Shown here piece after piece: positions 22,555 through 26,264 of a stretch of DNA of 64,000 nt. Location: contig NZ_JAIWPR010000004.1 of NCBI RefSeq assembly GCF_021191635.1, positions 1-64,000 on the forward strand. Reading direction: 5' to 3'. Position numbers and translations under genes: made by a program. Under the pieces are notes generated by a model that was given only the letters and a program-made list of their open reading frames with translations, did not search any database and was not told the origin of the DNA. Source of the DNA: Alterluteimonas quercicellularis (lineage in GTDB: Bacteria; Pseudomonadota; Gammaproteobacteria; Xanthomonadales; Xanthomonadaceae). Each line of letters begins with the position of its first letter. Position 1 is the first letter of the stretch.

Positions 22555-22670
22555 GCGTTTCCGGGTCGCCCGCGATCCTCCTGCGGGCGGGCTTGGCACC
22601 GCCACCCGCAGGCGGCAAGGTACCCGGGTGGCCGGGCGACGGGCCGCCCGCGCGAAGGAGGAGGCCGACG

Positions 22671-23054
22671 ATGGAACTGGCGATCTGGCTGCTGGCGGCG
22701 CTGCTCGTCGCCGCGCTCGTCCGCTACGCGCGGCGGCGGGTCGGCACGCGCGCCGGGCGGGAATTCGAGGCGCTGGTGTTCCGCACCCCCGAGGGACCGG
22801 TACCCGGGCGCCGGATGGAATCGCTCAAGACCGTGGTCGACGTGACGGGGCTGGAGAGCCCGTGGCCGCGCGGCTCGGTGTTCCGCTACTGCAAGGGGCC
22901 GGGGCCGAGCTACTTCGTGGCCATCCGCGAACCCGGCGAGCCCGGGCGCTGGGTCGTCCGGCCGCTGGAGCCCGAACAGCTGCGCGGGGCCCTCGTCGAC
23001 GATCCGGACGCGCTGCGCCTCGCCTTCCCGGAACCCGAACCGCCGCGCGACTGA
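22671..23054 (+). CDS. Small single-pass membrane protein, unknown
   Basis: This encodes 127 residues. One N-terminal transmembrane helix (LAIWLLAALLVAALVRYARR) is followed by a basic stretch and a soluble domain of about 100 residues with FEALVFRTPEGPVPGRRMES, GSVFRYCKGPGPSYFVAIREP and RWVVRPLEPEQLRGAL. I do not recognise a family. AAGGAGG stands about nine bases upstream of the ATG, one of the strongest ribosome sites in the window. It precedes the acyl-CoA dehydrogenase-like operon in the same direction by about 100 bp; whether it belongs to it is unclear. Confidence 0.7.
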   Translation: MELAIWLLAALLVAALVRYARRRVGTRAGREFEALVFRTPEGPVPGRRMESLKTVVDVTGLESPWPRGSVFRYCKGPGPSYFVAIREPGEPGRWVVRPLEPEQLRGALVDDPDALRLAFPEPEPPRD

Positions 23055-23156: not shown

Positions 23157-24164
23157 GTGGTCGCCTTGCCTGCCGCCAGCTCCGACATCGCCGCCGCGCC
23201 GCCTCCCGCCGCCGACCCGCCGCTGGCCGGCCCGGCGCTGCACGACGCCGTGCGCGAGGCGCTGCGCGAGCGCCCCGCGCTGCCGCTGCCCGGGCGCGGC
23301 ACGCGCGCGCGCTGGCGGGCGCTGGCCGAGCTGGCCGCGCGCGATCTCGCCCTGGCGAAGGTGCTGGAGGCCCACTACGACGCCCAGGCGATCTGCGCCG
23401 AGCTGGAGGCCCCCGGTCCCGCGCACGGCGAGGTCTGGGCGGTGTGGGCGGCCGAGCCGCCGCATGCGCAGCTGCGCCTGGAAGGCGGCCGCCTGCGCGG
23501 CCGCAAGGCCTGGTGCTCGGGCGCCGACTTCGTGAGCCACGCGCTGGTCACGGTGCGGCTGCCCGACGGCGAGCGCGGGCTGGCGGCGGTGGCCCTGGAC
23601 GCGCCCGGCGTCGAGGCCGACGACGCCGCCTGGCAGGCGCTGGGCATGGGCGCGGTGCGCAGTGGCGAGGTGCGCTTCGACGGCACGCCCGCGCGCGCGG
23701 TCGGCGCGCCGCGCGCCTATCTCGAGCGGCCGGGCTTCTGGCACGGCGGCGCCGGGATCGCCGCCTGCTGGCAGGGCGGCGCGGCCGCGGTCGCCGAGCG
23801 GCTGCGGCGCGACGCCGCCGTGGTCCGCAATCCGCACGCCGCCGCCCACCTGGGCGCGATCGACGCCGCGCTGGCGGCCGCGGCCGCGCTGCTGCGCGAG
23901 ACCGCCGATGCCATCGACGCCGCGCCCGAGCGGTCCCATCGCGAGGCGGTGGTGCGCGCGCGCAGCGCGGTGGAGGCCGCCTGCGCGCTGACGCTGGAAC
24001 GCGCGGGGCGGGCGCTCGGCCCCGCGCCGCTGTGCCTGGAGCGCGCGCATGCGCAGCGCTGCGCGGACCTGGCGGTGTTCGTCCGCCAGCACCATGCCGA
24101 GAAGGATCTGCAGGCCCTGGGCGAAGCGGCCCACGCGCTGGAGCGCACCCCGTGGCTGCCCTGA
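23157..24164 (+). CDS. Acyl-CoA dehydrogenase-like protein
   Basis: This encodes about 335 residues, shorter than the usual 380. Parts of the ACAD fold are visible: GRKAWCSGADFVSHALVTVRL at the flavin-binding beta domain, QALGMGAVRSGEVRFDGTPA, and a helical C-terminal half (AAHLGAIDAALAAAAALLRE) ending in LAVFVRQHHAEKDLQALG. The catalytic Glu cannot be assigned with confidence, so it may be a diverged oxidase or N-hydroxylase-type member. The start is GTG or TTG (23157 or 23166); no ATG is available. The next gene begins inside its end (13-bp overlap), so this is the first gene of a coupled operon. Confidence 0.7.
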   Translation: MVALPAASSDIAAAPPPAADPPLAGPALHDAVREALRERPALPLPGRGTRARWRALAELAARDLALAKVLEAHYDAQAICAELEAPGPAHGEVWAVWAAEPPHAQLRLEGGRLRGRKAWCSGADFVSHALVTVRLPDGERGLAAVALDAPGVEADDAAWQALGMGAVRSGEVRFDGTPARAVGAPRAYLERPGFWHGGAGIAACWQGGAAAVAERLRRDAAVVRNPHAAAHLGAIDAALAAAAALLRETADAIDAAPERSHREAVVRARSAVEAACALTLERAGRALGPAPLCLERAHAQRCADLAVFVRQHHAEKDLQALGEAAHALERTPWLP

Positions 24165-24979
24165 TCGATGCGGCGATCGACGCGACGCTGCCGCCCGCCG
24201 CCGCGCCCGCGCCCGACGAGGCCGACGCCCGCCTGATCGCCGGGCGCGGCACGCCGGAGTCGGCCTGGCGGCAGTCGTCCTGGCTGCAGGCGCTGCCGGA
24301 GGCCGCGCCGGAGGCGCTGCTGGGCGATGCGCGCCGGCTGGTGGTGGTCGCGCCGCATCCCGACGACGAGGTGCTGGGCGCCGGCGGGCTGATCGCCCTG
24401 GCCGCGGCGCGCGGACTGCCGGTGTGGGTGCTCGCGCTGACCGACGGCGAGCGCTGCTACCCGGCGCTGCCCGAGGCGTCGCACGCGGCGCTCGCGCAGG
24501 CCCGGCGCGCCGAGCTGCACCGCGCGCTGGCGCGCCTGGGCGTGGGCAGCGGCGGCGTCGAGCACCTGCGCCTGCCCGACGGCGGCCTGCAGGCGGAGGG
24601 CGCGGCGCTCGCGCTGCGCATCCACCGCCTGCTGCGGCCGCACGACCTGGTCCTGACCACCTGGCGCCGCGACGGCCATCCCGACCACGAGGCCGCGGCC
24701 GCGGCGGTGGCCGACGCCGCCGGCTGCAGCGGCTGCCGGCGGATGGAGTTCCCGGTCTGGGGCTGGCACTGGGCGCGCCCCGACGGCCGCGACCTGCCGG
24801 TCGCGGACATGCGCCGCCTGCCGCTGGACCGGGCGACGCGCGCGCGCAAGCTGTGGGCGCTGCGCGCGTTCGCCAGCCAGCTCGGCCGCGGGCCGGCGAT
24901 GCCGGCGGCGGCCGAGCCGATCCTGCCGGCCTGGGTGCTGGCGCGCTTCCGCCGCGACTTCGAGACCTTCGTGCTGTGA
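24152..24979 (+). CDS. PIG-L family N-deacetylase
   Basis: This encodes 275 residues. LVVVAPHPDDEVLGAGGLIALA carries the AHPDDE zinc and catalytic motif of PIG-L/LmbE enzymes, and RDGHPDHEAAAAAV supplies the third metal-binding His. Family members remove acetyl groups from N-acetylglucosamine linked to lipids, inositol, cysteine conjugates or antibiotics. The start is GTG at 24152, within the ACAD-like gene; the end overlaps the methyltransferase start by four bases (GTGA). Position between a glycosyltransferase and an N-methyltransferase-like gene suggests it acts on an N-acetylated sugar made by the same operon. Confidence 0.9.
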   Translation: MAALIDAAIDATLPPAAAPAPDEADARLIAGRGTPESAWRQSSWLQALPEAAPEALLGDARRLVVVAPHPDDEVLGAGGLIALAAARGLPVWVLALTDGERCYPALPEASHAALAQARRAELHRALARLGVGSGGVEHLRLPDGGLQAEGAALALRIHRLLRPHDLVLTTWRRDGHPDHEAAAAAVADAAGCSGCRRMEFPVWGWHWARPDGRDLPVADMRRLPLDRATRARKLWALRAFASQLGRGPAMPAAAEPILPAWVLARFRRDFETFVL

Positions 24980-25566
24980 GCGCGGACCTGGCCTACTTCG
25001 AGCGGCTGCACGAGGCCCCCGACCCGTGGGGCGTGGACGCGCGCTGGTACGAGCGCCGCAAGCGCGACCTGCTGCTCGCCTGCCTGCCGCAGCCGCGGTT
25101 CGCGCGCTGCTGGGAGGCGGGCTGCTCGGTTGGCGCGCTGACCGAGGCGCTCGCCGCGCGCTGCGACCGCGTGGTCGCGACCGACGCCGCCGAGGCGGCG
25201 CTGGCGCACGCACGCGCGCGCCTGTCCGGCCTGGGCCACGTCGAGCTGCGCCGGCAGATGCATCCGGGGGAATGGCCGGACGGGCGCTTCGACCTGATCG
25301 TGGTCAGCGAGCTGGCGTACTACCTGGACGCCGGCGCGCTCGCGCGCCTGGCGCGCCGGCTGGAGACCACGCTGGAGCCCGGCGGCACCCTGGTCGCCTG
25401 CCACTGGCGCTGGCCCTTCGCCGAGCGCCTGGCCGCCAGCGAGGAGGCGCACCGCGTGTTCGACGGCATCGGCCTGCCGCGCCTGTTCGCCTACCGCGAT
25501 CCCGACCTGCTGCTGGAGGGCTGGGGCGCGATGGCCTCGGTCGCCCAGCGCGAGGGCCTGGCGTGA
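24976..25566 (+). CDS. NodS-like SAM-dependent methyltransferase
   Basis: This encodes 196 residues. The N-terminal YFERLHEAPDPWGVDARWYERRK and the SAM-binding WEAGCSVGALTEALAARCDRVVATDA follow the NodS family pattern closely. Post-motifs include FDLIVVSELAYYLDAG and LEPGGTLVACHWRWPF. NodS of rhizobia N-methylates the free amine that NodB deacetylation leaves on the terminal glucosamine of Nod factors. Here a deacetylase gene lies directly upstream with a GTGA overlap, which makes a similar deacetylate-then-methylate order attractive. The true acceptor is unknown. Confidence 0.85.
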   Translation: MSADLAYFERLHEAPDPWGVDARWYERRKRDLLLACLPQPRFARCWEAGCSVGALTEALAARCDRVVATDAAEAALAHARARLSGLGHVELRRQMHPGEWPDGRFDLIVVSELAYYLDAGALARLARRLETTLEPGGTLVACHWRWPFAERLAASEEAHRVFDGIGLPRLFAYRDPDLLLEGWGAMASVAQREGLA

Positions 25567-26264
25567 TCGCGGTCATCGTCCCCGTGCACAACGAGGAGGC
25601 CCTGCTGGGCGACTGCCTGGCGTCGCTGCGCGAAGCGGCGCGCGCGGTGGAATCGTCCGGCGAGCCCGTGCGCGCGGTGGTGGCGCTGGACCGCTGCACC
25701 GACCGCTCGCGCGCGATCGCGCTCGCCCTCGGGGCGGAGGTGATCGAAGTCCACGCGGGCACCGTCGGTGCGGTACGGCGCGCGGCCGCCGAGCGCGCGC
25801 TGGCGCTGGGCGCGCGCTGGCTGGCGAGCACCGATGCCGACAGCCGCGTGCCGCCCGACTGGCTGCGCGGCCAGCTGCGGTACGGTGCGGACGCGTTCTG
25901 CGGCATGGTGCGGGTGGACGACTGGAGCGGCTACGCGCCCGCCACCGTCGAGGCCTATCTGCGCGCGCATCCGCACGTGGCCGGCCACCGCCACGTGCAC
26001 GGCGCCAACCTGGGCCTGTCGGCGCGCGCGTACCGCCGCTGCGGCGGCTTCGCGCCGCTGGCCTGCGGCGAGGACGTGGCCCTGGTCGCCGCACTGGAGG
26101 CGTGCGGGGCGTCGATCCGCTGGGCGCCCGCGCCGCTGGTGGTCACCAGCGCGCGGCGCGAGGCGCGGGCCCGCGGCGGATTCGCCACCTACCTGGCGCA
26201 GCTCGAGCGCGACCTGGCCGACGCCGCGGCGCCGGCGCCGCTGGCGCTCGCCGCCGGCGGCTGA
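25563..26264 (+). CDS. Family 2 glycosyltransferase (GT-A)
   Basis: This encodes 233 residues. It opens IAVIVPVHNEEALLGDCLASL, the GT2 nucleotide-binding start; LASTDADSRVPPDW contains the DxD metal motif. The C-terminal half has VHGANLGLSARAYRRCGGF and ACGEDVALVAAL, where the ED pair is the usual catalytic region. No transmembrane helix is present, so it is not a processive NodC-type synthase. GTGA overlap (25563-25566) ties it to the methyltransferase. It closes the four-gene operon. Confidence 0.88.
   Translation: MIAVIVPVHNEEALLGDCLASLREAARAVESSGEPVRAVVALDRCTDRSRAIALALGAEVIEVHAGTVGAVRRAAAERALALGARWLASTDADSRVPPDWLRGQLRYGADAFCGMVRVDDWSGYAPATVEAYLRAHPHVAGHRHVHGANLGLSARAYRRCGGFAPLACGEDVALVAALEACGASIRWAPAPLVVTSARREARARGGFATYLAQLERDLADAAAPAPLALAAGG

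Follow-up and report, generated by a model that had tools for sequence, protein, structure and literature searches.

The 64,000-nucleotide stretch of Alterluteimonas quercicellularis DNA analyzed here (contig NZ_JAIWPR010000004.1, positions 1 to 64,000; from now on referred to as the window) carries a compact cassette of four plus-strand genes spanning 23157-26264. The encoded proteins are, in order, a flavoprotein with a predicted acyl-CoA dehydrogenase (ACAD) fold, a PIG-L family deacetylase, a methyltransferase of the NodS clade and a soluble glycosyltransferase of family GT2. Successive genes overlap by 13, 4 and 4 bases, and both the coordinates and the Pfam families agree with the four overlapping genes described in the first-pass annotation. 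That annotation listed GTG or TTG starts; GTG is the assigned start of all four genes and the TTG at 23166 is merely an alternative start of the flavoprotein gene. The Pfam models for PIG-L, NodS and GT2 exceed their cut-offs, whereas the ACAD middle domain falls short of its own, and no NCBIfam model matched any of the four proteins above its curated cut-off. The cassette thus brings known enzyme families together in a new way, and its product is probably an undescribed compound.

Across other genomes the four families co-occur far above chance, with gene order and overlaps persisting, which is the outcome of the genome search proposed in the first-pass annotation. Chance adjacency can be ruled out based on the recurrent order, strand and overlaps. 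Among the best 80 of at least 564 relatives found in a scan of genome contigs (named loci), 62 encode all four genes on one strand, 58 of them in the order of the window and 4 with the GT2 gene first (L079, L104, L126, L129). Their hosts include Xanthomonas, Stenotrophomonas, Pseudomonas, Burkholderiales, Kushneria, Streptomyces, Nocardiopsis and Microbacteriaceae. When 299 genomes sampled from the phylum were searched with the methyltransferase (threshold 1e-10), 32 gave a match, a number that includes true NodS and fused relatives. Long flanks were analyzed for 20 loci picked from these 32 genomes, excluding NodS and fusion loci: 12 match all four window proteins, although in three of the 12 (L042, L043, L049) GT2 is represented by a larger and more distantly related protein encoded at another place, and at one further locus (L047) the methyltransferase is the sole window protein matched. 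Searches with the flavoprotein profile only, carried out in four genome sets, reported about 125 places, with that of the window appearing twice. The 76 places returned with a locus, again including that of the window, were analyzed further; two of the searches returned at most 30 loci each. PIG-L and methyltransferase genes are present on the same strand and in the same order in 73 of these 76 loci, the three misses being two loci at contig starts and one remote homologue (L155). Start codons permitting the respective overlaps are found at 56/83 ACAD/PIG-L junctions (13 bases), 69/84 PIG-L/methyltransferase junctions and 71/85 methyltransferase/GT2 junctions (4 bases each), counted over partly redundant loci. 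The flavoprotein occurs in 25 of 52 genomes of the window's own genus and therefore comes and goes. Mobilizable Acinetobacter plasmids (L156, L162) carry the cassette as well, and of 40 plasmid records containing the methyltransferase, 19 are from Acinetobacter. Two individual records should be mentioned separately. One flavoprotein copy, the second of its genome, carries an in-frame TGA (L199). In a record titled Bacillus subtilis SK7B5 (L060), the cassette DNA shares ~81% identity across 6.4 kb with a contig of a Stenotrophomonas metagenome-assembled genome, and this assembly is thus probably contaminated or misnamed.

Variant loci connect the deacetylase with the methyltransferase. In five actinobacterial loci (L086, L099, L103, L120, L125), PIG-L and methyltransferase form one open frame, with both domains detected by Pfam in 5/5 cases, and the two proteins therefore likely carry out consecutive steps. 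A Rubrobacter plasmid shows the order CE4 deacetylase, ACAD, methyltransferase, FAD oxidoreductase and glycosyltransferase; no PIG-L was found within this 20.5 kb stretch, the CE4 enzyme being found in its place. The best NCBIfam model for the Rubrobacter CE4 protein is NodB (9.4e-33, below cut-off) and that for the accompanying methyltransferase is NodS. Further, a separate clade of six loci (L024, L026-L030) combines GT2, methyltransferase and polysaccharide-deacetylase domains in one protein of ~1000 residues, with Pfam detecting all three domains in 3/3 scanned proteins (L024, L027, L028). Because a NodB-like CE4 enzyme takes the role of PIG-L in Rubrobacter and because these triple-domain fusions exist, the combined deacetylase and N-methyltransferase logic put forward in the first-pass annotation is credible. 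Other arrangements involve additional PIG-L proteins. In L035 and the Cupriavidus loci L159 and L163, a PIG-L of a different lineage is located within about 12 kb of the methyltransferase, in L035 directly adjoining GT2. Four Pseudomonas or Pseudomonas-like loci (L037, L039, L105, L123) contain a second PIG-L gene after the methyltransferase or GT2 gene, which suggests a second deacetylation.

Table 1. Genes and conserved motifs of the cassette, in window coordinates.
Feature	Position	Strand	Details
ACAD-fold flavoprotein (predicted fold)	23157..24164	+	335 aa; GTG start; short N-terminal helical part; TdsC/DszC/nitrososynthase-like
E-x-H-x-D/N motif of flavoprotein	23367..23381	+	E71 and H73 invariant in 42/42 aligned relatives
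K-x-W-C-S-G-A motif of flavoprotein	23505..23525	+	S121 invariant in 42/42 aligned relatives
PIG-L family deacetylase	24152..24979	+	275 aa; GTG start; 13-base overlap with flavoprotein gene
HPDDE, first part of PIG-L metal site	24356..24370	+	From alignment
DGHPDH, distal metal-ligand region of PIG-L	24671..24688	+	H179 invariant in alignment
NodS-clade S-adenosylmethionine-dependent methyltransferase	24976..25566	+	196 aa; GTG start; 4-base overlap
D-P-W, N-terminal motif of methyltransferase	25021..25029	+	From alignment; common with NodS
GT2 glycosyltransferase, soluble, GT-A fold (predicted fold)	25563..26264	+	233 aa; GTG start; 4-base overlap
D-x-D (DAD) of GT2	25833..25841	+	From alignment

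The methyltransferase scores 53.5 bits against the NodS superfamily model PF05401 (cut-off 24) and 66.7 bits against the NodS equivalog NF041650 (cut-off 300), for which a true NodS (L022) scored 341.4. Judged by these scores, the window methyltransferase itself is not NodS. A tree of 62 proteins was built from 23 cassette-type methyltransferases, 7 distant relatives, 2 true NodS proteins (L022 and the near-identical L023), 6 fusions and 24 other methyltransferases from the window genome and three more genomes. Cassette methyltransferases, distant relatives, NodS and fusions, all collected by similarity to the window protein, form one clade separate from the 24 others with a support of 99/99. 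A grouping with non-NodS enzymes, named in the first-pass annotation as the result that would speak against a Nod-like role, was thus not found. NodS is sister to the GT2-methyltransferase-CE4 fusions (98/95), and placements of NodS plus fusions inside or beside the cassette methyltransferases are both possible (p-AU 0.63). When the methyltransferase profile was compared with solved structures, the best match was 4isc (3.3e-68), a member of the same family for which only a structure labelled 'Methyltransferase' is available, followed by NodS (5.6e-28) and, as the next functional class, phosphoethanolamine N-methyltransferases (1e-14).

The fusions, the CE4 enzyme found in the same place and the kinship of the methyltransferases suggest that a single substrate is first deacetylated and then methylated. 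The simplest candidate for this substrate would be an N-acetylamino sugar that GT2 has attached to a small soluble acceptor. Alternatively, PIG-L and the methyltransferase could have a non-sugar amide, or oxygen or carboxyl groups, as their targets, the Nod likeness reflecting common ancestry only. Class I methyltransferases switch substrate readily, and the matches of the cassette PIG-L include other enzymes, namely 4-oxalmesaconate hydratase and LnmX. However, the clade-mates of the methyltransferase accompany glycan deacetylases, both in the GT2-methyltransferase-CE4 fusions and in Rubrobacter, and NodB is the partner of NodS. We regard this alternative as rather improbable.

The second cassette protein is the only match to PF02585 in the window genome, scoring 96.4 bits against a cut-off of 28.2. 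Its metal residues H69, D72, E73 and H179 are invariant over 37 alignment rows and, with HPDDE and the distal histidine both in place, it is assigned as a PIG-L deacetylase. The protein also matches the BshB1 and MshB models, and a low-molecular-weight thiol pathway similar to bacillithiol or mycothiol synthesis was considered on this basis. However, the window protein reaches just 62.9 of the 182.5 bits needed for BshB1 and 30.2 of the 224.35 needed for MshB, well under the curated cut-offs, the glycosyltransferase belongs to GT2 and BshA/MshA to GT4, and no cysteine ligase is found within the four cassette proteins. A thiol-cofactor pathway was rejected because these defining features are lacking and is, overall, very improbable.

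The glycosyltransferase scores 46.3 bits against PF00535 (cut-off 23.3). Its structural model (pLDDT, a per-residue model confidence score, of 95.9) shows a compact GT-A fold, with a Leptospira glycosyltransferase and the fucosyltransferase WrtF as the closest solved folds. The fold matches also include TarS and TarP, in part as structures containing UDP-GlcNAc. The D-x-D (DAD) is presumably the nucleotide-sugar and metal motif. None of the four cassette proteins contains a transmembrane-like segment, the top 19-residue hydropathy mean being 1.72, and the first-pass statement that the glycosyltransferase lacks membrane helices and is not a chitin synthase holds for this 233-residue protein. 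The nearest curated models are TIGR04283 (49.3 bits, cut-off 182) and the mycofactocin glycosyltransferase MftF (32.5 bits, cut-off 280), yet the window protein stays far under both cut-offs, and an identity as the arsenosugar glycosyltransferase described by TIGR04283 was rejected. Some loci carry further sugar enzymes. In L042, L048, L049, L050, L075 and L130, varying subsets of an additional GT4, a MurG-like GT-B and an MftF-like GT2 are found within ~10 kb of the methyltransferase, as if for a longer glycan; the family assignments come from scans of members at L042, L048 and L075. On a Deinococcus plasmid (L157), the methyltransferase is accompanied by GT2, GT1 and UDP-galactopyranose mutase with a PIG-L about 9 kb off, and no ACAD is annotated within this stretch.

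The flavoprotein scores 28.7 bits against Acyl-CoA_dh_M (PF02770), below the cut-off of 33.3. Its AlphaFold2 model (pLDDT 91.7) adopts an ACAD fold whose N-terminal helical part is short. Foldseek ranks 5gj7 (a putative acyl-CoA dehydrogenase according to its title), TdsC, DnmZ, ColB1 and DszC best, with classical ACADs near behind and KijD3 and another nitrososynthase also among the fold neighbors. Profile ranking places TdsC (2.4e-14), DszC (1.9e-13), 5z8t/5gj7 and ColB1 on top, followed by a mix of acyl-CoA dehydrogenases (2dvl, 3.9e-11; 1rx0, 1.1e-10), methanesulfinate monooxygenase and nitrososynthases (KijD3, 1.6e-10; DnmZ, 6.4e-9). In the profile alignment, one His and one Ser of TdsC/DszC are placed opposite H73 and S121; we take these two to be the residues important in DszC and defining the group. 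The K-x-W-C-S-G-A motif aligns with K-x-F-C-S-G of TdsC/DszC. As to a catalytic glutamate of the acyl-CoA dehydrogenase type, residues 304-317 contain no invariant Glu, position 315 being E in 30/42 and D in 9/42 relatives, with its placement in the fold uncertain. Closest by profile, and with Ser and His kept, the protein falls with the DszC/nitrososynthase type by small margins. It shares the fold and the conserved His/Ser with the ACAD-fold flavin monooxygenases DszC/TdsC, DnmZ and KijD3 but is shorter (335 as opposed to about 400 residues) and only ~20% identical. In the most economical reading, it is predicted to be an oxidase or monooxygenase. The acylation considered possible in the first-pass annotation is not supported: no acyltransferase was matched among the four proteins, the 'ACAD' protein is slightly nearer to DszC/TdsC and to flavin enzymes of the nitrososynthase type than to any other group, and family and fold comparisons give no support for acyl transfer by it.

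An oxidative role could take two forms. The flavoprotein may oxidize the amine exposed by the deacetylase, as discussed below, or it could be an amino-sugar N-oxygenase similar to nitrososynthases, giving a natural product with an N-oxidized sugar (hydroxylamine, oxime, nitroso or nitrone) and with methylation occurring before or after. The presence of DnmZ, KijD3 and another nitrososynthase among the fold neighbors, as well as the profile matches to the first two, are in line with an N-oxygenase. However, TdsC and DszC match better, isobutyryl-CoA dehydrogenase equals KijD3 and no nucleotide-sugar aminotransferase is found within the four cassette proteins. We consider this possibility unlikely.

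We infer the following reaction order. The soluble GT2 would move an N-acetylated amino sugar, probably from UDP-GlcNAc, onto a small soluble acceptor. PIG-L would remove the acetyl group of the resulting conjugate, the NodS-clade methyltransferase would methylate the freed amine, and the ACAD-fold flavoprotein would oxidize the amine or the adjacent carbon. The acceptor may be a non-reducing disaccharide, above all trehalose, with sucrose used in some lineages, and the product may serve in a general response to osmotic, desiccation or oxidative stress. We tentatively favor, at somewhat less than even confidence, the reading that the cassette is a self-contained module scattered widely, also found on plasmids, making a small soluble N-methylated amino-sugar conjugate, probably in stress response, with trehalose as the leading acceptor. 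Of the N-methylated, possibly acylated amino-sugar conjugate suggested in the first-pass annotation, the deacetylase and N-methyltransferase logic is retained, the product itself is putative and the acyl part is dropped.

Trehalose and sucrose genes are linked to the cassette in part of its range. In Comamonas antarctica, the gene order is otsA-ACAD-PIGL-MT-GT2-otsB (MT, methyltransferase), with the joins to the ots genes overlapping by 4 and 17 bases, an arrangement that makes trehalose the best candidate acceptor. The same picture would also be expected from shared stress regulation. The order otsB-otsA-cassette is found in L045 and L051. In one genus (g22), otsA is located directly upstream on the same strand in 18/18 loci, and in other genera of the same family otsA was found within 1.5 kb in 0/12 loci. 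In longer stretches, otsA is directly upstream of the cassette in L285 and L286 (genus g476), otsBA is found 2-4 kb away on the opposite strand in L272 and L289, and no otsA or otsBA is present in L282, L283 and L284. On two Acinetobacter plasmids, otsAB is found near the cassette, in one case together with catalase, and a Cupriavidus plasmid carries the cassette near glgE and catalase. Further, the cassette adjoins treZ-malQ-treY in Pseudomonas loci and is found near sucrose-phosphate synthase/phosphatase in L048 and L049. In total, trehalose or sucrose genes are near the cassette in 29/125 case loci, including L163 with a doubtful 27% sucrose match, and in 0/40 control regions (one-sided Fisher 1.3e-4), and within 12-20 kb in 8/20 phylum-draw loci as compared with 0/40 controls (4.9e-5), p-values that are indicative only because case loci are mutually related. 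It should be noted that the controls were hand-placed and non-random, at round coordinates in ten cassette-bearing genomes, that some query proteins came themselves from case loci and that 8 plasmid loci within the 125 were known before counting. Another 20 case loci come from two families picked after one member showed otsA beside the cassette, trehalose genes being found in 8/11 loci of one family and 0/9 of the other; the 20 phylum-draw loci are free of this particular bias, although they too were picked by hand.

The linkage could also arise if the N-methylated conjugate were built on another small acceptor, trehalose and sucrose genes being neighbors through shared stress regulation only. 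Other stress-related genes are found in the same neighborhoods, specifically catalase in 10/125 case loci (0/40 controls) and Zn-alcohol dehydrogenase in 19/125 (2/40), as well as ferritin-like, PRC-barrel and DUF421 proteins beside the cassette on plasmids, and the majority of named loci have no trehalose gene nearby. In 11/11 genomes chosen for otsA near the cassette, a set not including Comamonas, the linked OtsA is the sole OtsA of the genome, so a specialized second OtsA was rejected; all 11 score below the TIGR02400 cut-off, with the OtsA of the window genome above it. However, the Comamonas cassette is enclosed by otsA and otsB and overlaps both of them, a tighter arrangement than shared regulation would require. 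We regard another acceptor combined with shared regulation as somewhat unlikely.

Several observations weigh against the favored reading of a trehalose-linked N-methylated conjugate. Since these genomes encode no OtsA other than the linked one, plain co-regulation with ordinary trehalose synthesis explains the linkage equally well. The window contains no match to OtsA, OtsB, MalQ, TreY, GlgE or sucrose-phosphate synthase, and the OtsA of its genome is encoded about 131 kb from the cassette. Among named loci of at least 10 kb, trehalose or sucrose genes are found in just 8/77, all Pseudomonas (one-sided Fisher 0.03, likewise indicative only), and in the family of G196 otsA is present within 1.5 kb in 1/30 loci, the already-known one, and in 0/9 longer stretches. 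The cassette itself is incomplete in places: 9/80 named loci (Paraburkholderia/Burkholderia) contain no PIG-L in the cassette, 6/80 (Caballeronia/Burkholderia) no GT2 and 3/80 still less (L098, L107, L130), L098 and L107 being at contig edges. All 8 genomes searched for the 9 PIG-L-less loci encode relatives of the different PIG-L lineage elsewhere, which may simply be a genus-wide trait. Classical acyl-CoA dehydrogenases score little worse than monooxygenases against the flavoprotein by both profile and fold, and no cassette member appears to have a known activity. A more specific proposal appears doubtful, namely that scattered Proteobacteria and Actinobacteria, in part by way of plasmids, use the cassette to convert trehalose, or sucrose in some lineages, to an N-methylated aminoglycosyl derivative that would form a new class of stress-protective sugar containing nitrogen.

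Within the window, genes neighboring the cassette include those for a Zn-alcohol dehydrogenase, an aldo/keto reductase, a dienelactone hydrolase and a BCCT transporter. Just upstream, a small open reading frame (22668-23054, 128 aa) encodes a protein with a hydrophobic N-terminus and no Pfam match.

Literature searches returned no account of this gene set among the matches listed, subscription papers being largely outside their scope; as a control, the term PIG-L was retrievable where printed. The portions available of PMC13130816, PMC12029717 and PMC10100943 do not mention the cassette. The cassette represents a four-enzyme pathway undescribed in the literature searched, which keeps its order and overlaps in Lysobacteraceae, Pseudomonas, Burkholderiales, Acinetobacter plasmids and Actinobacteria. 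If the product were a modified trehalose or other N-methyl amino sugar, an overlooked class of stress metabolite would be represented by it.

Two known systems resemble the cassette. In bacillithiol and mycothiol synthesis (BshA-BshB, MshA-MshB), a glycosyltransferase and a PIG-L deacetylase act in turn on a small soluble GlcNAc conjugate, a logic that the cassette would have in common with them. However, its glycosyltransferase belongs to GT2 and not GT4, and an N-methyltransferase and a flavoprotein are found in place of the cysteine ligase. The second system is Nod-factor tailoring by NodC, NodB, NodS and NodA. An acylated Nod-factor-like chito-oligosaccharide would be in line with the presence of a deacetylase and a NodS-clade methyltransferase but is scarcely credible as the product: the cassette GT2 is a soluble 233-residue protein and not a membrane chitin synthase of the NodC type, the deacetylase of the window cassette is PIG-L and not a CE4 NodB, with CE4 found in the Rubrobacter variant only, a flavoprotein is added, and no NodA acyltransferase was matched among the four proteins by Pfam or NCBIfam, the rest of the genome not having been searched for NodA. 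The Nod-factor pathway proper was rejected on these grounds. What the cassette and Nod-factor tailoring share is a deacetylase, a GT2 and a methyltransferase that forms one clade with NodS, and, if the proposed pathway is correct, deacetylation and N-methylation in the style of Nod factors would also operate outside symbiosis.

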